Origin: Anaerolineaceae bacterium
GTDB taxonomy: Bacteria > Chloroflexota > Anaerolineae > Anaerolineales > Anaerolineaceae
DNA length: 64,000 nt
Direction of reading: 5' to 3'
Assembly (NCBI GenBank): GCA_016841365.1
Contig: JAENZI010000007.1
Span: 1-64,000 of the forward strand
Shown piece by piece: positions 29,858 to 42,157 of this stretch. The notes beneath the pieces are model-generated. The model was given only the letters and a program-made list of their open reading frames with translations. It searched no databases and had not been told where the DNA came from. Position 1 is the first letter of the stretch; each line of letters begins with the position of its first letter. A program made the translations under genes and the position numbers.

Positions 29858-30712
29858 ATGAAAATTAAAATCGCTCTGGCACAATTCAACACCAGGCTTG
29901 GCGACGTTAAAGCCAATCTAGAAAAACATATGGAACGGATTGATGCAGCCCGCAAGCAGGGCGCAGATCTGATCATCTTCCCCGAACTTTCGCTGACGGG
30001 GTATGCCCTGCAAGATCTGGCAGTGACCTCGGCACTCCGGCCGCATCAGGAAGACCCGGTCTACAATGAACTTTTGCACGCCAGCAAGGATATCGACCTG
30101 ATGGTGGGGTTTGTGCACGAAGACCGCCGCCACCGGTTCTATATTGCCTCCGCTTATCTTTCAGGCGGAAAAACGCTTCACATTCATGATAAAGTCTACC
30201 TGCCCACCTACGGCATGTTTGATGAGAGCCGCTTTTTCGCCTGGGGAGATTCGGTGAAGGCATTTGACACCCGCTTTGGCAGGGTGGGCATGCTGATCTG
30301 CGAGGATTTCTGGCACGCGTCCCTCCCCTACCTGCTGTGGCTGGATGGCGCAGACATCCTGCTGTTTGCCTCAGCATCACCGGGGCGCGGCTTGCATGAA
30401 AGCCCGCGCCTGAGCAGCTCGGAGTGGGTGGAGCACACCAACCGGGCATACGCCGGCTTGTTTACCGTATTTGTCGCCCACACCAACCGTGTGGGATATG
30501 AGGATGGACTCAATTTTTGGGGCGGCTCAACCATATTTGACCCCGATGGCAACCTGGTCGTGCGGGCACCGGATTTTGAAACCTCACTGTGCATCGGCGA
30601 AATTGACCTGAACCAGCTTTACCGCACCCGCACCCGGCTGCCCATTCTGCGGGATGAGCGCACAACCCTGGTGCAAAATGAACTGGAAAGGATTTTAAAT
30701 ATCCATGATTGA
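29858..30712 (+). CDS. nitrilase-family amidase, probable glutaminase half of NAD synthetase
   Basis: A 284-residue carbon-nitrogen hydrolase with the Glu-Lys-Cys triad: Glu43 (IIFPELSLTGY), Lys112 (HDKVYLPTYGMFDE) and Cys148 (GMLICEDFWH). The segments QDLAV and LPTYGMFDE are typical of the glutaminase domain of glutamine-dependent NAD synthetases. The gene overlaps nadE by 8 nt. The simplest reading is that this protein hydrolyses glutamine and delivers ammonia to the separate NadE protein, as a split version of the fused bacterial enzyme. Confidence 0.88.
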   Translation: MKIKIALAQFNTRLGDVKANLEKHMERIDAARKQGADLIIFPELSLTGYALQDLAVTSALRPHQEDPVYNELLHASKDIDLMVGFVHEDRRHRFYIASAYLSGGKTLHIHDKVYLPTYGMFDESRFFAWGDSVKAFDTRFGRVGMLICEDFWHASLPYLLWLDGADILLFASASPGRGLHESPRLSSSEWVEHTNRAYAGLFTVFVAHTNRVGYEDGLNFWGGSTIFDPDGNLVVRAPDFETSLCIGEIDLNQLYRTRTRLPILRDERTTLVQNELERILNIHD

Positions 30713-31526
30713 CCTAAAAATCAACACCACCCTGGCTGAAAAAATCCTGACCGGTTTCATCAAAACAGAGCTGAATAGGGTTGGCTTCAACAAGACATTG
30801 ATGGGTCTTTCAGGCGGGCTCGATTCTGCCGTCAGCCTGTATCTCTCCGCCAAAGCCCTCGGCCCTGAGAACGTTCTAGCAGTGCGCATGCCGTACAAAA
30901 CCTCACCTCAAGAAACCTTGGATGATGCACAACTGATGATCGACGATCTGGGTGTCCAATCCATGACGGTTGAGATCACTGATATGGTTGACCCATTGAT
31001 ACATTATTACGACGATATGGACAAACGCCGCGCCGGCAATATCATGGCGCGCATGCGGATGATCGTGCTTTACGATCAATCCGTGCCATTTAACGGGCTG
31101 GTAATGGGCACCAGCAACAAAAGCGAGATGCTTTTAGGCTACTCAACCGTTTTCGGCGATTCCGCCGCTGCACTGCAGCCCATCGGCGACCTGTACAAAA
31201 CCCAGGTGCGCCAGCTTGCCCGGGCAATTGGCGTCCCCGAGAAGATCATCCAAAAAGCGCCCTCAGCGGACCTGTGGGCAGGGCAGACGGACGAAGGCGA
31301 ACTGGGTTTCACCTACGAGGCAGTCGACAAGCTGCTTTACCTGCTGGTTGACCAGCGCTATCCCCCGGAATCTTGCGTGGAAGAGGGGTTTGACCCCGAC
31401 TTCATCGAAAAAGTGATGCGCCGGATGCGCCAGAACCACTTCAAACGCATCATGCCGCCCATCGCCAAACTCTCACAGCGTACCATCGGGTATGACTTCT
31501 TATACCTGCGCGATTGGGGCACATGA
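30705..31526 (+). CDS. nadE: NAD+ synthase
   Basis: A 273-residue NAD synthetase that amidates nicotinic acid adenine dinucleotide to NAD. The PP-loop SGGLDSA is at 36-42, and the conserved MGTSNKSEMLLGYSTVFGD segment follows. Length equals that of ammonia-dependent, single-domain NadE, but the overlapping upstream gene encodes a nitrilase-type amidase, so ammonia is probably supplied from glutamine. No autonomous ribosome-binding site is obvious because the start lies within the upstream reading frame. Confidence 0.95.
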   Translation: MIDLKINTTLAEKILTGFIKTELNRVGFNKTLMGLSGGLDSAVSLYLSAKALGPENVLAVRMPYKTSPQETLDDAQLMIDDLGVQSMTVEITDMVDPLIHYYDDMDKRRAGNIMARMRMIVLYDQSVPFNGLVMGTSNKSEMLLGYSTVFGDSAAALQPIGDLYKTQVRQLARAIGVPEKIIQKAPSADLWAGQTDEGELGFTYEAVDKLLYLLVDQRYPPESCVEEGFDPDFIEKVMRRMRQNHFKRIMPPIAKLSQRTIGYDFLYLRDWGT

Positions 31527-33211: not shown

Positions 33212-33304
33212 AATTTCACCCGTTCGTTGATGAACCAGATAATGACTAAAAAATGGCAAGGAGAACGATGGCAAAGCCCCGTTCGCCTTCCCATTCTTTT
33301 GTAG

Positions 33305-33378
33305 TCGGGGTGGGCGGACTTGAACCGCCGACCTCCGCGTCCCAAACGCGGCGCGCTAGCCGTCTGCGCTACACCCCG
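33305..33378 (-). tRNA. tRNA-Pro (anticodon TGG)
   Basis: On the minus strand the cloverleaf is complete. The acceptor stem is CGGGGTG/CACCCCG, the D arm GCGC..GCGC, the anticodon stem CCGCG/CGCGG with loop TTTGGGA (anticodon TGG, reading CCA), and the T arm GGCGG-TTCAAGT-CCGCC. G37 after the anticodon is usual for tRNA-Pro. The 3' CCA is not encoded. A near-consensus promoter lies just upstream. Confidence 0.96.
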
Positions 33379-33417: not shown

Positions 33418-34335
33418 GATGCTCATGATCCACCGCGATCCGTCCATCGCTGGCTGCTTTTTCTACTGTTGAGCGCCGTCTGGCTGGGCGGCTGTCAGCC
33501 TAAAACACCTGCTCCATCCACCTCATCCCCTACAGAGACTGAACTGCCTGCGCAGACCGACCAAGTGATCACTTCAACCCCAACGACACCGGCTACAACA
33601 ACCCCCAGCCCCGTCATTTCACCCACACCTGACTGCTTTGCACAGGGTGGCAGCCTTGAAACAGGGTCGTTTTATTCCGAGTTACTTGATGATAATTTCC
33701 ACTTTCTGATCTACCTGCCGCCGTGTTATCAACCCAAAGCGGATGGGGGTTACCCGACCCTCTACCTCCTGCATGGGCTTTTTTCATCCTATGAACAATG
33801 GGCGCAATTAGGTCTGGTCCAGCAAATGGATTCGATGATCGAAATGGGGGATCTCCCGCCCTTTATCGTCATCCTGCCTGATGAAGCTGTGACAGAGGCA
33901 CCTCAAACTTCCGTCTTCCCCGACGCGCTCACAGAAGAATTGATCCCCTGGGTGGATGCCCATTATGCCACACAGCCCAATAAAGCCGCTCGCGCCATTG
34001 GCGGCATCTCACGAGGCGCAGCCTGGGCGGTTCACATCGGCTTTGACCATCCGGATTTATTTCACAGCATTGGCGCACACAGCCTGCCCCTGTTTCAGGC
34101 GGATGCCGCCAACATCACCCGCTGGTTGAGGCAGACGCCGGGTGAAGAACTACCCCGTGTTTTGATTGACATCGGCCGCGAAGACCAGGAATGGAAATCC
34201 GCACAGGAATTTGCAGACCTGCTAAACGCAAATTTCATCCCGCACGAGTGGTATTTGTTTACGGGGGGGCACACCACCATGTATTGGTCGAGCCATTTAG
34301 AATTCTACTTACGCTGGTATGCCAGGGATTGGTAA
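33403..34335 (+). CDS. esterase-family (PF00756-type) lipoprotein
   Basis: A 310-residue secreted lipoprotein: basic N-terminus, hydrophobic helix and lipobox LGGC (Cys31), a Ser/Thr/Pro linker to about residue 75, then an alpha/beta hydrolase of the esterase D / putative esterase family. The nucleophile serine is in GGISRGAAWA (GxSxG), the acid is probably in DIGREDQEW, and the histidine in GGHTTMYW. YPTLYLLHGLFSSYEQW is the typical oxyanion region. The start at 33403 is chosen because anything longer reads through the tRNA gene. No ribosome-binding site precedes it, and a TATAAT 7 nt upstream suggests a leaderless message. Confidence 0.88.
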   Translation: MPKRQDAHDPPRSVHRWLLFLLLSAVWLGGCQPKTPAPSTSSPTETELPAQTDQVITSTPTTPATTTPSPVISPTPDCFAQGGSLETGSFYSELLDDNFHFLIYLPPCYQPKADGGYPTLYLLHGLFSSYEQWAQLGLVQQMDSMIEMGDLPPFIVILPDEAVTEAPQTSVFPDALTEELIPWVDAHYATQPNKAARAIGGISRGAAWAVHIGFDHPDLFHSIGAHSLPLFQADAANITRWLRQTPGEELPRVLIDIGREDQEWKSAQEFADLLNANFIPHEWYLFTGGHTTMYWSSHLEFYLRWYARDW

Positions 34336-34399
34336 GCAGATGGGATTAAATATGCAGTAAAATAAAGTCAGTCCTAACCTCATCATGAAGGGAGAAAGC

Positions 34400-34813
34400 A
34401 TGTTTCAACAAATCACAATCGTAGGATATTTAGGGAATGACCCGGAAATGCGTTTCACCCCCGGCGGTCAGGCTGTCACCAGTTTCTCGGTCGCCGCATC
34501 CCGCTCTTATACCAACAACTCCGGGCAAAAAGTTGACGAAACCGCGTGGTTCCGTATATCAGTATGGGGTGCACAAGCAGAAGCATGTAATCAGTACCTG
34601 AAAAAGGGCAGACCCGTGCTGGTGGTTGGACGCTTGCGCCCAGACCCCCAATCGGGCGGACCGCGTGTCTTCACTCGCAATGATGGCTCACCCGGTGCTT
34701 CCTATGAAGTCAATGCACTCAATGTGAAATTCCTGCCCTCTGGCGGCGCCAGCGGCGGAAATTATGAGCAAGACATGGGTGACGAGCCAGGAGACGACGA
34801 CATCCCATTCTAA
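34400..34813 (+). CDS. ssb: single-stranded DNA-binding protein
   Basis: A 137-residue SSB with an N-terminal OB fold (QITIVGYLGNDPEMRFTPGG, then VASRSYTNNSGQKVDETAW) and a glycine-rich linker. The acidic tip DDDIPF at the C-terminus binds partner proteins in replication and repair. The start at 34400 has GGGAG 6 nt upstream; a longer in-frame form from 34385 is less likely. It is the first gene of an operon with a DUF3467 protein (12 nt gap) and a translin-like protein (4-nt overlap). Confidence 0.96.
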   Translation: MFQQITIVGYLGNDPEMRFTPGGQAVTSFSVAASRSYTNNSGQKVDETAWFRISVWGAQAEACNQYLKKGRPVLVVGRLRPDPQSGGPRVFTRNDGSPGASYEVNALNVKFLPSGGASGGNYEQDMGDEPGDDDIPF

Positions 34814-34825
34814 ACTGGAGATTGT

Positions 34826-35137
34826 ATGCCAACCCAACCGATACCGAATTTTGAAATTCCGGATGATCTGGAAGCGCAATATGTCAACTTCGTCCGGATA
34901 TCTCACACCGCGTCTGAGTTCGTATTAGATTATTCGCTCTTGCTGCCTGGTGTAACAAAACCCATGGTCGATTCCCGGTTGATCATGTCGCCCATTGCTA
35001 TAAAGCTATTTGTTAAGGCGATGACGGAAAACATCAACCGTTACGAACAAAAATTTGGCGAGATCAAATTGCCGGGTAAACATTCGCTGGCGGACGAACT
35101 ATTCAAACCCACCGATCAAGAGGGAGAAGCGGAATGA
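34826..35137 (+). CDS. DUF3467 protein
   Basis: A 103-residue DUF3467 protein. The family pattern is clear: QYVNFVRISHTASEFVLDYS near 19-38, SRLIMSPIAIKLFVKAMTEN near 50-69, then YEQKFGEIKLP. The function is unknown; the family is common in bacteria and archaea. It lies between ssb and the translin-like gene and its stop overlaps the next start (ATGA), implying translational coupling. Confidence 0.88.
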   Translation: MPTQPIPNFEIPDDLEAQYVNFVRISHTASEFVLDYSLLLPGVTKPMVDSRLIMSPIAIKLFVKAMTENINRYEQKFGEIKLPGKHSLADELFKPTDQEGEAE

Positions 35138-35793
35138 ACCATAACCTCGAAGACCTCTCAGACCAAATCAGAGAGGCGTTTGAGCGTCAAAATAAGGTGC
35201 GCGATGAAGCGCTTGCGCAAAGCCGAAACCTGACGCGCCATGCCGCCAGGGCGATCCGTGCCATTCACAGAGAAGACTCCAGCCAGGCGCACGAGCATCT
35301 GAGTGAAGCGGATAAACTGGCGAGAGAACTGCGGGAAGGACTTGCTGAATTCCCGGATCTGTATTTTTCGGGCTACGCACAAGACGCACTCAAAGAATAT
35401 TGCGAAGCGCACCTGACCGTTGCCACCATTCTCAACGAGGATTGGCCGACACCGGATGAACTCCAGGTGGAATATGCGGCTTATCTAAACGGCATGTCAG
35501 AGGTTGTGGGTGAACTGCGCAGACGCATCATGGACATCATGCGTGAAGGCCACTCGCAAGAGGTGGAACGTCTGCTGGAGGTCATGGAAGACATTTATAC
35601 CCAATTAGTCACCATGGACTTCCCGGATGCCCTCACCTATGGCTTGCGCCGCCGGACCGACATCGCCCGCAGCATCATTGAACGTACACAGGCGGATGTG
35701 ACCGTCAGCTATCGCCAGCAGCAGCTTGAAGAACGGATTAATGACCTGTCTGCACAGCTTGAGGAAATCAAACTTCCGTCAGACGAAGCCTGA
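35134..35793 (+). CDS. translin-family-like helical protein
   Basis: A 219-residue all-helical protein resembling the archaeal/bacterial branch of the translin family. The features are the early RQNKVRDEALAQSRNLTRHAARAIRAIHR-like helix (about 18-46), the AKxLxREL-like helix that follows, and the late GLRRRTDIARSIIERTQADVT segment, which matches the conserved C-terminal translin helix. Eukaryotic translin binds single-stranded nucleic acid and, with TRAX, degrades RNA; the prokaryotic versions are largely uncharacterised. Its coupling to ssb and DUF3467 suggests a nucleic-acid role. The C-terminal ~25 residues form a short coiled coil. Confidence 0.72.
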   Translation: MNHNLEDLSDQIREAFERQNKVRDEALAQSRNLTRHAARAIRAIHREDSSQAHEHLSEADKLARELREGLAEFPDLYFSGYAQDALKEYCEAHLTVATILNEDWPTPDELQVEYAAYLNGMSEVVGELRRRIMDIMREGHSQEVERLLEVMEDIYTQLVTMDFPDALTYGLRRRTDIARSIIERTQADVTVSYRQQQLEERINDLSAQLEEIKLPSDEA

Positions 35794-35901
35794 GAAATTT
35801 ATTTGCAGAATGATCCTTTTTTAATCTATTAGTGGTATAAACCTCGTGGTATGATTCGCCTTTCATGTTGAAACATGTTAGACTCCATACCGGAGTAAAT
35901 A

Positions 35902-37116
35902 ATGCAAGAAAAGACTAATCCTTGGCAGCGGCCGGAAGAAGAACCGGTCGTTACCGATCCTCAAATTGAAGAAACAGCACAATCACCCAAACCTGCCATC
36001 CAATTGTTCTGGGAACGTTTGCGCGGCTGGGGCCTGGGTGATGCTAGTATGCGGTTTGCCACCGCTCTGACCACACTTGTGCTGGTATTCCTGATCGTGT
36101 GGGTGATGAACAGCGTCTTTCTGCAAACCCCAAACCCCAGTGTGGAAAGCGCCGGCATTGCCAATGCGCAAACCATGCTGACCCCCACCGCCACGCTCCC
36201 GCCGCCTGTATTCACTGCCGCGGAAGGAGACACAGAAGGCTTTCATCGCATTGCAAACCTGAACACCACGCTGCCGATACGGCAGGCGCGCTATCAGGTG
36301 ATCGAATACACAGTCGAATCTGGCGACTCAATCTTTTCGATCGCCGATAAATTCAACCTTAAACCCGAAACGATCCTGTGGGGCAACCGCTACACGCTTG
36401 GTGACGACCCTCACTTCATTGTGCCCGGGCAAACCCTGAACATCTTGCCGGTGGATGGCGTTTACCATATGTGGAGCGCGGGTGAAGGCCTGAACGGCGT
36501 CGCCTCTTATTACGCCGTGACCCCTGAAGATATCATCAACTGGCCCGGTAACAACTTGGATCCCGACACGATTGGCGACTATGCTAACCCCAACATCCCG
36601 CCTGAAACCATGCTGGTTGTCCCGGGCGGCAGGGGCAGTTACACCGATTGGCGCACGCCGCGCATCAGCCGGGATGAACCTGCCACCGCCAAGCACCTTG
36701 GCCCTGGCGCCTGCACCGGCAGTTTCGATGGCATCACCGGCACACTGACCTTCATCTGGCCCAGCACAGAACGTTATCTTTCTGGTTACGATTACAGCCC
36801 TGAAACCAATCACTTTGCGATCGATATCGCCGGCAGGCTCGGCAACCCCATTTATGCTGCTGACCATGGTGTGGTTGTTTATGCCGGCTGGAACGATTAT
36901 GGCTACGGCGAAATGATCGTCATCGATCACGGCTTCGGCTGGCAGACGCTATATGCCCACCTCAGCCAGATCAACGTGAGCTGCGGACAGGAAGTCTATC
37001 AGGGTGACACCATCGGCTTGATGGGCAGCACAGGTAAATCCACCGGACCCCACCTGCACTTTGAGATGCGCAGTGATGAATACGGCCGGGTCAACCCGTG
37101 GGATTTCCTCAAGTAA
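35902..37116 (+). CDS. LysM / M23 peptidase, membrane-anchored
   Basis: A 404-residue cell-wall hydrolase-type protein. It has a cytoplasmic tail of about 50 residues, a transmembrane helix at about 53-71 and a Thr/Pro-rich linker. A LysM domain follows at about 130-178 (YTVESGDSIFSIADKFNL...VPGQTLNI), with a second, weaker LysM-like stretch next. The M23 metallopeptidase domain (about 280-400) shows zinc ligands in HFAIDIA (HxxxD) and HLHFE. It is expected to cleave peptide cross-links of the envelope or, if inactive, to regulate amidases. GGAG precedes the ATG, and a strong terminator follows. Confidence 0.93.
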   Translation: MQEKTNPWQRPEEEPVVTDPQIEETAQSPKPAIQLFWERLRGWGLGDASMRFATALTTLVLVFLIVWVMNSVFLQTPNPSVESAGIANAQTMLTPTATLPPPVFTAAEGDTEGFHRIANLNTTLPIRQARYQVIEYTVESGDSIFSIADKFNLKPETILWGNRYTLGDDPHFIVPGQTLNILPVDGVYHMWSAGEGLNGVASYYAVTPEDIINWPGNNLDPDTIGDYANPNIPPETMLVVPGGRGSYTDWRTPRISRDEPATAKHLGPGACTGSFDGITGTLTFIWPSTERYLSGYDYSPETNHFAIDIAGRLGNPIYAADHGVVVYAGWNDYGYGEMIVIDHGFGWQTLYAHLSQINVSCGQEVYQGDTIGLMGSTGKSTGPHLHFEMRSDEYGRVNPWDFLK

Positions 37117-37213: not shown

Positions 37214-39631
37214 TTAACCAAGAATAACTTCAACTTTGTGCGTTGATCCTTCTGCATAAACCGGCAGCAGATTGCCGTTTATTGACTCGCCATCCACCGC
37301 AATAGAAACCACACCTTGATGAATGCCTGACGGATTTGATACCTCAATCTGGTAAGTTGCGCCTCTGAAGCGCCTTACGGCTGTAAAACCCGGCCACTCC
37401 GCAGGGATGCAGGGGTCGATGCGCAGTCCATTAATTTCTGGGCGGATGCCCAGGATGTACTTTAACCCCGCCTGGTAGGTCCACGAGGCTGTACCTGTCA
37501 GCCAGGAATTACGCGCCAACCCAAACTGGGGGTGTTCATCGCCCAAAATATTCTGTGGATAAACATAGGGTTCGCACTCAAACAAATCGATGACATCATT
37601 CTTGTTGGCCGGGTTGATCTGCCGGTAGTACTGATAAGCCCGGTCGCCACGCCCCAGCATGGTTTCAGCGATCATCACCCAGGGGTTGGCGTGTAAAAAA
37701 ATCCCGCCATTCTCCTTTGCCCCCGGCGGATAAGTGGTAACACCGCCTTTTTCAGGGTCGTAACCATCATAACCCGGCGTGCTCAGTTTGATCCCGTTAG
37801 GTGTGTTCAAGCGCTGAAAAACAGCATCCAGTGCTTTTTGGGCGCGTTTCTCTGAGGCAAATCCAGAAAGGACTGCCCAGGACTGCGCGTTGGTGTAGAT
37901 TTTCCCCTGCTGATTTTGGTGCGATCCGATTGGCTTCCCGTGATGGTCGAAATAACGAAGATACCAATCCCCATCCCAGGCTTGATCATTAACAATCTGC
38001 TTCATTTGCTGATACCAGGATTGATACTTCTTCAACGCCTTCTTTTTCCCAAGAACTTCACATAACCCCATCATTTCCCTGAGCGCCCAACCGTAGAGGT
38101 GCGCCGTGAAAAGCGATTCTGCACCGCTCGGAAGGTTTACCGTGTCATTCCAATCCGCAAACCCCAGCAATGGCAGTCCATGCTGTCCAATTTGATCGTG
38201 TGTGAATCGCAGGCCTCGCTTGAGATGCTTCCAAACACTGCCCGATTCCAGCGGCGTTTCATCCTTTCCCTTATCATAGAAAGGGATATCCTGCTTAATA
38301 AAATCAAAATCACCAGTTTCTTTGAGATATTCTGCAACCGCAAGTACCGCCCACAGGTGGTCATCACTGTAAAATTTCGGACGGTCTTCTTCCTCAACTG
38401 AATCACCAAAATTGGCGATCATCGTCAGGGGATTGAACTGGTGCATCGCCGAACCATCCCACTTTTGCACCTGCAGCAATTTGACCAGCAGATTTTTGGC
38501 TTGCTTTGGCGCGCCCAGCAAGGCACCCATCACATCCTGCGAACTATCACGAAAACCCATCCCCCGGGCACCAAACCCAAGTTGATAAAGCGACAAGTAG
38601 CGGGACCAATTCAGGGTGATATGGCACTGATGCGGGTTGTGAATATTCAGCATGCTGTTCATGCTCGCATCCGGCGTATTCACCTGTGCTGCGCCCAATA
38701 TTCCGTCCCAATAAGCGCGTAATGCCACAAAAGCCTTTTCAACTTCTGCAGTCTTGCGAAATTGATGTATGTTTGGGAGCGCCGCCGCCACGCTCTCAGC
38801 CCGCCCAAGCAGAATGATCACCTTACGGCTTTCCGCTGGCTGGAGCGAGCCCAGATGCAGCATCAGAGCGCCAATATTATTCCCCCGCAGTGCCAAATTG
38901 TTACACAATTCCGGAGATTGTAGCCCATTCGGCGACATCCATGTCCCATAGCCATGATCGCCCAAAAACACCTCCCGGTCCGTCTCATAGGATGAGACCG
39001 GGAAATTCGCTGTAAAGGTATTGCGCCAGGCATCTTTATGCATGAACGGTGCCTGGCTGAGCACTTTCATACCGCCCGGTTCCTCGTCAACCCAGGATTG
39101 CATTGTCTGGGGCACCCAATCAGCGTTAGTTAACTGCTTGAGGGCATCTGGGTGGGTATATTCCACCACGGGCACCAGGTCAATCTCTTTTGACTCCTCA
39201 CTGAGGTTGGTCACCTTCACCTGCTGCACCACCTGGGTTTCACCCAACGGGATGAATACCCTCACCTCTGTACGGACCTCGTATATTTCTGACAAAAAGG
39301 TGGAATACCCCAACCCCACCCGGCATTCAAACTGATCATACGGCACCAGGGTAGGCACAAAAAAGGGTGAAAATACCTGGTAACTGCCCGCCCCATCCGG
39401 GGTGCGAAGGTAGAGTGTCGTCCCTCGAAAGCCAGAGGGCGGACCCTGCGTGAGATATTTGGTGATGCGGTTCAGCGCTGGGTCCTGCTGGCAGATCAAC
39501 ATGCCGCCGGTCTGGTCCACAAAGCCCCCAAATGCCAATGAACCAAGGTAATTGATCCATTTGACGGGTGTTTTGGGATTGGTAATCACATACTCTTTAT
39601 TTTCGTCATCAAAATATCCATAAGTAGACAT
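37214..39631 (-). CDS. GH94 glycoside phosphorylase (substrate unresolved)
   Basis: An 805-residue GH94 inverting phosphorylase, converting a beta-glucoside plus phosphate to sugar-1-phosphate. It opens with STYGYFDDENKEYVITNP, shared by cellobiose and chitobiose phosphorylases; the catalytic aspartate is in LLGFADWNDTVNLP. The GFADWNDT context differs from the GRADWNDC of the neighbouring cellobiose-phosphorylase-like paralogue, so a different disaccharide or oligosaccharide is likely. The start at 39631 is set by GGGA 8 nt upstream. It is the last gene of the transport and degradation run. Confidence 0.9.
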   Translation of the reverse strand: MSTYGYFDDENKEYVITNPKTPVKWINYLGSLAFGGFVDQTGGMLICQQDPALNRITKYLTQGPPSGFRGTTLYLRTPDGAGSYQVFSPFFVPTLVPYDQFECRVGLGYSTFLSEIYEVRTEVRVFIPLGETQVVQQVKVTNLSEESKEIDLVPVVEYTHPDALKQLTNADWVPQTMQSWVDEEPGGMKVLSQAPFMHKDAWRNTFTANFPVSSYETDREVFLGDHGYGTWMSPNGLQSPELCNNLALRGNNIGALMLHLGSLQPAESRKVIILLGRAESVAAALPNIHQFRKTAEVEKAFVALRAYWDGILGAAQVNTPDASMNSMLNIHNPHQCHITLNWSRYLSLYQLGFGARGMGFRDSSQDVMGALLGAPKQAKNLLVKLLQVQKWDGSAMHQFNPLTMIANFGDSVEEEDRPKFYSDDHLWAVLAVAEYLKETGDFDFIKQDIPFYDKGKDETPLESGSVWKHLKRGLRFTHDQIGQHGLPLLGFADWNDTVNLPSGAESLFTAHLYGWALREMMGLCEVLGKKKALKKYQSWYQQMKQIVNDQAWDGDWYLRYFDHHGKPIGSHQNQQGKIYTNAQSWAVLSGFASEKRAQKALDAVFQRLNTPNGIKLSTPGYDGYDPEKGGVTTYPPGAKENGGIFLHANPWVMIAETMLGRGDRAYQYYRQINPANKNDVIDLFECEPYVYPQNILGDEHPQFGLARNSWLTGTASWTYQAGLKYILGIRPEINGLRIDPCIPAEWPGFTAVRRFRGATYQIEVSNPSGIHQGVVSIAVDGESINGNLLPVYAEGSTHKVEVILG

Positions 39632-39715
39632 GGCTTTTCCCTTATTAACCAACACATATCAAGATGCGCGGATGCACCTGGTGAAATTGAAAATATTGAA
39701 TGATGTTCGCTTTGG

Positions 39716-42157
39716 TCATGCGCCGATGGTTGCCAAAACCTTCACGCGTGTTTTATCACTGGGCGGGATGAGGGTGCCTTCTACCGTTTCGCCATCCACT
39801 ACGAGGGCAATATTATCGCCTCCGCCTTTGCGCACAACCTCGATCTCATAGGTCGTGCCCCTAAACTTGCGCACGGCGCTGAAGCCTTCCCAATCTGATG
39901 GGAGCACGGGTTCAACCCGCAAGCCGCCATAGTCCGGTCGTATGCCGAGGATGTGCTGCGTGATGGCAACGTAGTTCCAGGCAGCAGTGCCGGTCAGCCA
40001 CGAGTTTTTCGCCTCACCGAAATGATCCGCATCCTTGCCTGCAATCATCTGGGCGTAAACATACGGTTCACACCGGTGCAATTCGCTGAGCGCCTCACGC
40101 TTCGAGGGGTTAATCCGCAAATAGTAATCCAAAGCCTGATCGCCATGCCCAAGAACGGTTTCTGCAATCATGATCCAGGGATTGGTATGGCAAAAGACAC
40201 TGGCGTTTTCTTTATATCCCGGCGGGTAAGAAGAAATTTCACCGAGATGCAAGTAATACTCACGATAAGCCGGCTGCAAAAGAACAACCCCGTGTTCAGT
40301 TGCCAGGTGCTGTTCGACGGATTGCAGCGCTTCCTCCGCCAAGCCTGTTTTGATCCCGATGCCTGCCATACAGCACAAGCCCTGCGGTTCAATAAAAATC
40401 CTTCCCTCCCGGTTGCTTTTCGAACCCACCGGATTGCCGTAATGGTCATAAGCCCTCAAGAACCATTCGCCGTCCCAACCAAAGCGCCGCGTGGTGGCTG
40501 CCATGCCCTCTGCCAGCCCCCTGAGCCTTTTGGCTTCATCGGTCATGCCCAAATGCTGGGTGATATCTGCCAGTTCTTTGGCTGCCATGGTGAACAAGGC
40601 TGCAATCACCACTGACTCTGCAATCTTTCCATCCCGGTTGGTGGTCGTCTGGAAGGATTCGCCGGGTTTATCCGAGAATGTGTTCAGGTTCAGGCAGTCA
40701 TTCCAATCCGCCCGTCCAATCAATGGCAGCCCATGCGGACCGATGTTATCCAATGTGTATTGCACCGCGCGTTCAAGGTGCGCCAGAAGGCTCGCTTCTG
40801 AGCCAGGTTTGTTTTCATAAGGCACGCGCTCTTCCAAAATTGACCAGTCTGCCGTTTCCTTCAGATAGGCTGCGGTGCTCAGGATCAGCCAGGCAGGGTC
40901 ATCATTGAAATTGCTCCCCACCGCGTCATTGCCGCGTTTGGTAAGCGGCTGGTACTGATGATAGGCGCCCCCATTCTCAAGTTGGGTTGCCGCAAGGTCT
41001 AAAATACGTTGCCGTGCCCGTTCCGGCACCATCTGCACAAACCCCAGTAAATCCTGGTTCGAATCTCTGAACCCCATTCCCCGCCCAATCCCGGATTCAA
41101 AATATGAAGCAGACCGGGACAGGTTGAAGGTGACCATGCATTGATAAGCGTTCCAGATGTTCACCATCCGGTCTACATGTTTATTGGGAGATTTCACTTG
41201 CATCACACCCAATAGCCCATCCCAAGCCTCTTGCAGAGCAGTAAAGGCATCATCCACCTGGTTCACATTGAGATATTTTTCGATCACAGGGAGTACGGTC
41301 TGCTTGTTGATCGTTTGCGAACCATGGGGAGAGAATTTTGCGTCCGCTGGGTTTTCATGATAGCCAAGCAAAAAAACGATCCGCCGCTTTTCATTCGGGG
41401 CTAACGAGACCTTCAAATGCTGGACACCCACAGGTGACCAGCCCACCCGCAACGAGTTGGATGTCTTCCCAATCTCCACCGCTGCCGGATTCTCCCAACC
41501 CCGATAGGGCTCCAAAAAGGCTTCACGCTGGGTTTCAAACCCCTGTATGGGTTCAGAGCAGGCAAAAAATGCAAAATGATTTCGGCGTTCGCGGTATTCC
41601 GTCTTGTGAAATATGACTGAACTTTCCACCTCAAGCTCACCAATGTTCAGGTTTCGCTGGAAGTTGGTCGCATCATCATGCGCTTCCCACAAGCAAAACT
41701 CTACACAAGAGAAGACAGAAATCTCCCGATTGAGGTCAGTTTCGTTTTCGATGGTCAGATCCCAAATTTCAAGCGTTTCTCCTGGGGGGACAAAATAGCG
41801 GATATCCGCCCGAATACCCTGATAGGCTGAACCAATGACGCTATATCCCATGCCATGACGGCAAACATAGTCCTCCGCCGGATGGCGTGTCGGCATCCAT
41901 GTCGGTGACCAGTAACTGCCGCTTTGGTCATCCCGCAGGTAAATGTAACGCCCCCCCATATCGGGGGGGACGTTGTTGTAGCGGTGGCGGATCAACCGCC
42001 GCAACCGGGCGTCCTGGAAAAAAGAGTAACCGCCAGCCGTGTTCGAGATCAGCCCAAAATAATCCTGCATACCTAAATAGTTGATCCAGGGCAAAGGTGT
42101 GTCAGGTCGGGTGATCACATATTCACGGTTATTATCATCAAAATACCCAAATTGCAT
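39716..42157 (-). CDS. cellobiose phosphorylase (GH94)
   Basis: An 813-residue GH94 enzyme very like characterised clostridial cellobiose phosphorylases: MQFGYFDDNNREYVITRPDT at the start, the catalytic Asp in GRADWNDCLNLN, followed by the SFQTTTNRDGKIAESV segment of that subgroup. It would split cellobiose into glucose-1-phosphate and glucose in the cytoplasm, saving one ATP relative to hydrolysis. It lies 84 nt upstream of the second GH94 gene and 48 nt downstream of the GH3 gene. The nearest purine-rich site (GGAGG) is about 12 nt before the ATG, longer than ideal. Confidence 0.92.
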   Translation of the reverse strand: MQFGYFDDNNREYVITRPDTPLPWINYLGMQDYFGLISNTAGGYSFFQDARLRRLIRHRYNNVPPDMGGRYIYLRDDQSGSYWSPTWMPTRHPAEDYVCRHGMGYSVIGSAYQGIRADIRYFVPPGETLEIWDLTIENETDLNREISVFSCVEFCLWEAHDDATNFQRNLNIGELEVESSVIFHKTEYRERRNHFAFFACSEPIQGFETQREAFLEPYRGWENPAAVEIGKTSNSLRVGWSPVGVQHLKVSLAPNEKRRIVFLLGYHENPADAKFSPHGSQTINKQTVLPVIEKYLNVNQVDDAFTALQEAWDGLLGVMQVKSPNKHVDRMVNIWNAYQCMVTFNLSRSASYFESGIGRGMGFRDSNQDLLGFVQMVPERARQRILDLAATQLENGGAYHQYQPLTKRGNDAVGSNFNDDPAWLILSTAAYLKETADWSILEERVPYENKPGSEASLLAHLERAVQYTLDNIGPHGLPLIGRADWNDCLNLNTFSDKPGESFQTTTNRDGKIAESVVIAALFTMAAKELADITQHLGMTDEAKRLRGLAEGMAATTRRFGWDGEWFLRAYDHYGNPVGSKSNREGRIFIEPQGLCCMAGIGIKTGLAEEALQSVEQHLATEHGVVLLQPAYREYYLHLGEISSYPPGYKENASVFCHTNPWIMIAETVLGHGDQALDYYLRINPSKREALSELHRCEPYVYAQMIAGKDADHFGEAKNSWLTGTAAWNYVAITQHILGIRPDYGGLRVEPVLPSDWEGFSAVRKFRGTTYEIEVVRKGGGDNIALVVDGETVEGTLIPPSDKTRVKVLATIGA

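Follow-up and report, generated by a model that had tools for sequence, protein, structure and literature searches.

The ssb-DUF3467-translin locus

The locus described here raises the question of what a translin-family protein may do in a bacterium when its gene follows those for a single-stranded DNA-binding protein (SSB) and a DUF3467 protein. It has long been asked whether RNA or DNA is the main target of the translin family. Both RNA and DNA roles are still under discussion, according to an excerpt of PMC9246224. We analyzed a 64,000-nucleotide stretch (here called the window) of contig JAENZI010000007.1 (Anaerolineaceae bacterium, GCA_016841365.1), in which a first-pass annotation made from the sequence alone had proposed an operon of these three genes. 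Profile matches confirmed that the genes lie together, all on the plus strand, and the ATGA overlap through which the last two had been proposed to be translationally coupled was likewise found (Table 1). ssb and DUF3467 were separated by 12 bases. A promoter and terminator scan of positions 34300 to 36000 found no plus-strand site. Elsewhere in the window, the upstream esterase open reading frame, as listed, has its start overlapped by the tRNA-Pro gene; the esterase gene thus probably starts further in.

Table 1. Positions of the locus features and of other features in the window
Feature	Position	Strand	Description	Evidence
ssb paralogue	34400..34813	+	137 aa, OB fold, C-terminal tip DDDIPF	PF00436 9.6e-26, TIGR00621 2.3e-29
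DUF3467 protein	34826..35137	+	103 aa	PF11950 3.2e-16, 59.6 bits vs cut-off 25
Translin-superfamily protein, TRAX/C3PO type	35134..35793	+	219 aa	PF01997 1.9e-7, 31.7 bits vs cut-off 25.9
ATGA	35134..35137	+	DUF3467 stop overlapping translin start	Sequence
NAD synthesis genes	29858..31526		Two overlapping genes, carbon-nitrogen hydrolase and NAD synthase	
GH94 genes	37214..42157	-	Two in tandem, both 813 aa	
tRNA-Pro (tgg)	33304..33378	-		

The translin-family protein

Translin homology was borne out by sequence and predicted structure. In addition to the PF01997 match above the cut-off, the protein matched AfTRAX (E = 3.5e-27) and NEQ131 (3.4e-13) in phmmer, and a profile search recovered AfTRAX at 1e-34. 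The profile comparison with eukaryotic proteins, which had been suggested as a check, also gave matches, namely, to the TRAX chains of fly and human (E of about 1e-4). The predicted model (pLDDT 95.7) had an all-helical fold that superposed on AfC3PO with a TM score (target) of 0.90 and an rmsd of 1.6, and human, mouse, and fly translin/Trax chains were also among its fold matches.

Catalytic type was assessed in an alignment of 250 Chloroflexota rows (249 loci and the window set; rows overlap in genomes, and L001 repeats the window). E88, E91, and E127 were invariant, and E123 was replaced by D once, with a gap at these columns in one row. We take these four residues to be the acidic catalytic residues of TRAX. 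Because they almost never vary, we argue that catalysis is under selection. Where the window protein has E123, AfTRAX has D in 3zc1 but A in 3zc0, which is titled as a duplex RNA complex. In human Trax, E197 is named as catalytic in an excerpt of PMC9246224, and by our own reading of the positions it would align with E127 of the window protein. The designation "translin-like" in the first-pass annotation was therefore correct as to superfamily and needed revision as to type: given the retained catalytic acids, the protein is, on sequence grounds, TRAX-like rather than translin-like.

Among the nearest NCBIfam models, the best scored 247 bits, below its cut-off of 291 bits. These models carry the name "haloacid dehalogenase superfamily protein," a misleading label for this gene.

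Gene order within Anaerolineales

A translin match was present in 91 of 101 genomes (the window genome and 100 relatives), including 60 of the 62 genomes of the high-quality subset, with one match each. We read 88 loci of the order (the window and 87 others; the matching genomes G003, G059, and G062 were left out). ssb lay upstream of translin, on the same strand and within 1.1 kb, in 86 of these loci, and the remaining two had only 312 and 619 bases ahead of the contig end. The arrangement is thus conserved well past this strain, and both the tight linkage to ssb and the nucleic-acid theme of the locus, as first proposed, were supported. All three genes were found in 70 loci, ssb and translin in 16, DUF3467 and translin in one, and translin with neither in one, the last two loci both being interrupted by contig ends.

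Named loci gave a similar picture. Among the best 80 of a larger number, ssb and DUF3467 were both within 600 bases in 72, only ssb in 3, and only DUF3467 in 5; ssb was located at about 655 bases in two of these last five, and the other three start no more than 480 bases into the contig. The nearest named relatives by translin identity were L091 (Anaerolineaceae bacterium, 82%) and L092 (Brevefilum sp., 81%), which places the window in Anaerolineales, class Anaerolineae. The trio was also carried by Longilinea arvoryzae KOME-1 (L120).

When the first three candidate translin starts were considered for each of 71 DUF3467/translin pairs, 62 pairs had one no more than 20 bases from the DUF3467 stop, with an overlap in 34 and an ATGA-type junction (-4) in 16. 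Insertions were seen in three loci: an extra gene separates DUF3467 from translin in L072 and L074 (a PD-(D/E)XK protein in the one that was scanned) and ssb from DUF3467 in L077. Translin and its linked SSB were both undetected in G016 and G079, for which one missing contig would account, and we give this joint absence no weight. In G092, ssb-DUF3467-nadK-recN was retained with no translin match.

The SSB paralogue

Two SSBs are encoded in the window genome, one in the operon and the other next to the gene for ribosomal protein S6. In a phylogeny of 57 SSB sequences, 35 operon SSBs and 3 SSBs from ssb-DUF3467 loci shared one side of a branch (length, 1.05; support, 100/100), with the rpsF-type SSBs and a third SSB type on the opposite side; the bootstrap of this tree was not fully settled, many of its inner forks were open, and several further detected SSBs were not placed in it. 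An S6-like or S18-like neighbor was found for 9 of the 13 rpsF-type rows by a pattern check and for more by eye. The operon SSB and the rpsF-linked (housekeeping) SSB belong to the same family, and most of the latter also end in PF, as do the operon SSB tips in 84 of 86 loci; they differ in clade and in gene context. By this phylogeny, the operon SSB and its rpsF-linked counterpart are deep paralogues.

In two genomes, G031 and G029, the translin-linked SSB was the sole SSB detected. Here rpsF is directly followed by a gene that we read as rpsR-like, with no ssb in between (L291:1174-1782 and L293:1174-1779, respectively). In these two lineages, the paralogue appears to have taken the place of the rpsF-linked SSB, and, given that no other SSB was found in them, it can probably meet the SSB needs of a cell alone.

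The DUF3467 protein

The first-pass annotation had cast DUF3467 as a factor bridging SSB and translin, a proposal that the survey weakened. Since no DUF3467 was detected at 16 of the 86 ssb-translin loci, it is unlikely to be an essential bridge. As measured from the edges of profile matches, the end of ssb was at most about 75 bases from translin in 12 of these 16 loci and 158 to 355 bases from it in 4, a spacing in which a diverged DUF3467 could hide. Three well-assembled genomes with no DUF3467 between ssb and translin (G031, G034, and G058) had no DUF3467 match genome-wide.

Among the open-license PMC papers searched, one mentions DUF3467. An AlphaFold2 model (pLDDT 85.8; pTM 0.61) combined a long helix with three strands. 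No PDB entry matched DUF3467 by sequence. Foldseek placed MoSub1 first and also listed PURA and PC4 chains, interspersed with unrelated proteins (E values of 0.14 and worse), whereas COMM domains ranked best in VIA-align, followed by PUR and PC4 (Z scores of 4.7 and lower). With all Z scores below 5 and no Foldseek E value below 0.14, we do not claim a PC4, PUR, or COMM fold. The matches are alike in type (strands and a helix), and several bind ssDNA; the predicted fold is compatible with nucleic-acid binding, and we take it no further.

Elsewhere in Chloroflexota, 20 DUF3467 regions lay beside radC, a CT398-type zinc-ribbon gene, ribonucleotide reductase, or unrelated genes, which is suggestive only. 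In L261, L263, and L266, from another family of the phylum, DUF3467 is located directly ahead of a radC-like gene (Pfam RadC for L263 only). In L255, L258, and L259, it is followed by a gene of the CT398 type (coiled coil and zinc ribbon; Pfam for L258 only), after which an RNase H gene comes next in L258.

Genes downstream of the operon in relatives

Longer flanks were available for 57 loci of the order, some of them interrupted by contig ends, and one member per gene cluster was scanned. The flanks contained nadK (36 loci), a recN-like gene (34), a gene for a B-box-like zinc-finger membrane protein (29), a Cas4-like gene (c5; 27), and a small gene (c7; 20). The scanned nadK member was a clear NAD kinase. 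That of recN had AAA_23 above the cut-off and SMC_N below it, while another member, in L272, passed; the B-box match was slightly below its cut-off. The c5 member scanned (L185, from outside the class) matched PF01930 (6.2e-9) and an NCBIfam cas4 model over residues 59 to 178 of 180 (61.5 bits; cut-off, 65), and c7 matched this cas4 model weakly over residues 4 to 46 (E = 0.038). One invariant Cys residue was found in c7, and an invariant or near-invariant PD...ExK motif and three C-terminal Cys residues were found in c5. We assume that these Cys residues bind an Fe-S cluster of the kind known from Cas4. From our reading of hydrophobic stretches, the two-gene nuclease is apparently membrane anchored. 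The two genes co-occurred in 17 of the 57 order loci compared with 1 of 80 others. The two-gene Cas4-like nuclease can be seen at L043:4623-4862 and the next gene, and also in L032 and L180, with the N-terminal Cys gene first and the PD-(D/E)XK core gene second. In the window itself, nadK, recN, and Cas4-like genes do not adjoin the operon, the next gene encodes a LysM-M23 peptidase, and PF01930 had no match in the genome.

Such neighbors (SSB, RecN-like, and Cas4-like proteins) are DNA factors, and structures of NeC3PO with ssDNA as well as ssRNA exist according to their titles. The translin protein could thus serve chiefly to bind nucleic acids as an oligomer, working together with SSB on ssDNA during recombination or repair, its RNase activity being secondary; the near-complete conservation of the catalytic acids argues instead for selected catalysis, and we regard this reading as rather improbable.

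Anti-phage defense was also considered, because PADLOC Cas4 models match the Cas4-like gene found in one relative and translin itself resembles JetA weakly and in part (2.1e-4). However, ssb and DUF3467 had no PADLOC match, no relative was found in phage or plasmid records or in viral contigs, and translin is present in 60 of the 62 high-quality genomes of the order sample, at one match per genome. On these grounds we rejected a role of the operon as part of a defense system as very improbable.

Distribution beyond the order

With our own alignment as the query, translin was found in 167 of 301 genomes sampled across the phylum (24 within the order, 13 elsewhere in the class, and 130 from beyond the class); PF01997, which detected 37 of the 301, was too weak to serve as the survey profile. 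Ten of the 13 loci from other orders of the class were read. ssb adjoins translin in L174, DUF3467 does so in L175, L176, and L179, and neither gene was present in the other six. ssb and DUF3467 also occur as a pair in L251 and L252, so that each pair of genes recurs without the third in other orders of the class. Judged by coordinates, ssb is near translin in G294, and in G368 and G248 ssb and DUF3467 are together on a contig separate from that of translin. Beyond the class, none of the 70 translin loci read had ssb or DUF3467 in its flanks (mostly about 4 kb upstream; <1 kb in four). The ssb-translin link is thus a clade-specific recruitment, and translin works without it elsewhere, which makes an obligate SSB-translin complex unlikely for the family as a whole. 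DUF3467 was detected in 52 of the 301 genomes, and translin was present in 45 of these 52 compared with 122 of the 249 genomes without DUF3467.

Outside the order, translin had other neighbors: of 80 loci, 11 had a ThiD2/thiamine-phosphate synthase gene and 14 a large gene that we read as encoding a membrane pyrophosphatase. These contexts would fit a general RNA-turnover RNase acting on tRNA fragments and other short RNAs, for which the ssb operon would provide co-expression only and no common substrate. Consistent with such a role, Neurospora C3PO appears to remove 5' pre-tRNA fragments (excerpt of PMC3834833), and archaeal TRAX is often located beside SepRS and endonuclease V (excerpt of PMC8762117). 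Left unexplained would be the presence of ssb upstream in all 86 loci with enough sequence and the separate recurrence of each gene pair in other orders of the class. We consider general RNA turnover a serious possibility, albeit a doubtful one.

A possible role in RNA clearance

Given that the linked genes encode DNA factors and that the enzyme is of an RNase type, the reading we favor, tentatively and as somewhat short of probable, is that a second SSB, DUF3467, and a TRAX-type C3PO-like RNase clear RNA at structures containing ssDNA. The translin gene would encode an RNase of the C3PO kind, probably homo-oligomeric, that degrades RNA where DNA is single stranded, i.e., at R-loops or where RNA is left at repair or recombination intermediates. 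SSB would coat the exposed strand and may recruit partners via its acidic tip, and DUF3467 would be an accessory factor, perhaps one that binds nucleic acids. Archaeal Trax degrades RNA by itself (excerpt of PMC9051087), and R-loops accumulate at two loci in fission-yeast tsn1 and tfx1 mutants (excerpt of PMC9246224).

Several observations count against RNA clearance at such structures. These are the lack of ssb and DUF3467 at all 70 loci beyond the class and at 6 of 10 in its other orders, the ssb-DUF3467 pair of G092 with no translin match, and the window operon, which has no adjoining nadK, recN, or Cas4-like gene; gene order, moreover, is no demonstration of contact. In addition, an excerpt of PMC9246224 argues that the role of Tsn1 in stress tolerance is RNase independent, with stress sensitivity not tracking the R-loop level. 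A more elaborate form of the RNA-clearance reading, which we consider unlikely, is a pathway at R-loops or broken forks in which the acidic tip of the dedicated SSB recruits the C3PO-like RNase with help from DUF3467, joined in relatives by RecN and a membrane-anchored Cas4-like nuclease whose cluster cysteines are split over two genes.

Comparison with known systems

Bacterial members of the translin superfamily are already in print, as the title of Gupta et al. 2012 (J Mol Evol 75:155) places the superfamily in eubacteria, and so is the archaeal TRAX context with SepRS and endonuclease V (excerpts of PMC5424206 and PMC8762117). Among open-license PMC papers, our search returned none joining translin, single-stranded DNA-binding protein, and operon. 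Translin and TRAX are best known from archaea and eukaryotes, and the operon offers a simple setting for testing the function of the family: a single gene of the catalytic type is tied to SSB across a bacterial order and to repair genes in many relatives. It also gives DUF3467 a conserved gene context.

Among the closest known counterparts of the window protein is archaeal C3PO, represented by AfTRAX (3zc0 and 3zc1) and NEQ131 (5jr9, 5jrc, and 5jre), with which it has in common the superfamily, the fold, a lone TRAX-like protein, and the catalytic acids. It differs in being bacterial and linked to ssb and in having E123 where AfTRAX has D. With eukaryotic translin/Trax (C3PO) it shares the fold. 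Eukaryotic translin is without most of the catalytic residues (excerpt of PMC9246224), whereas the window locus has one gene, and that gene is of the catalytic type.
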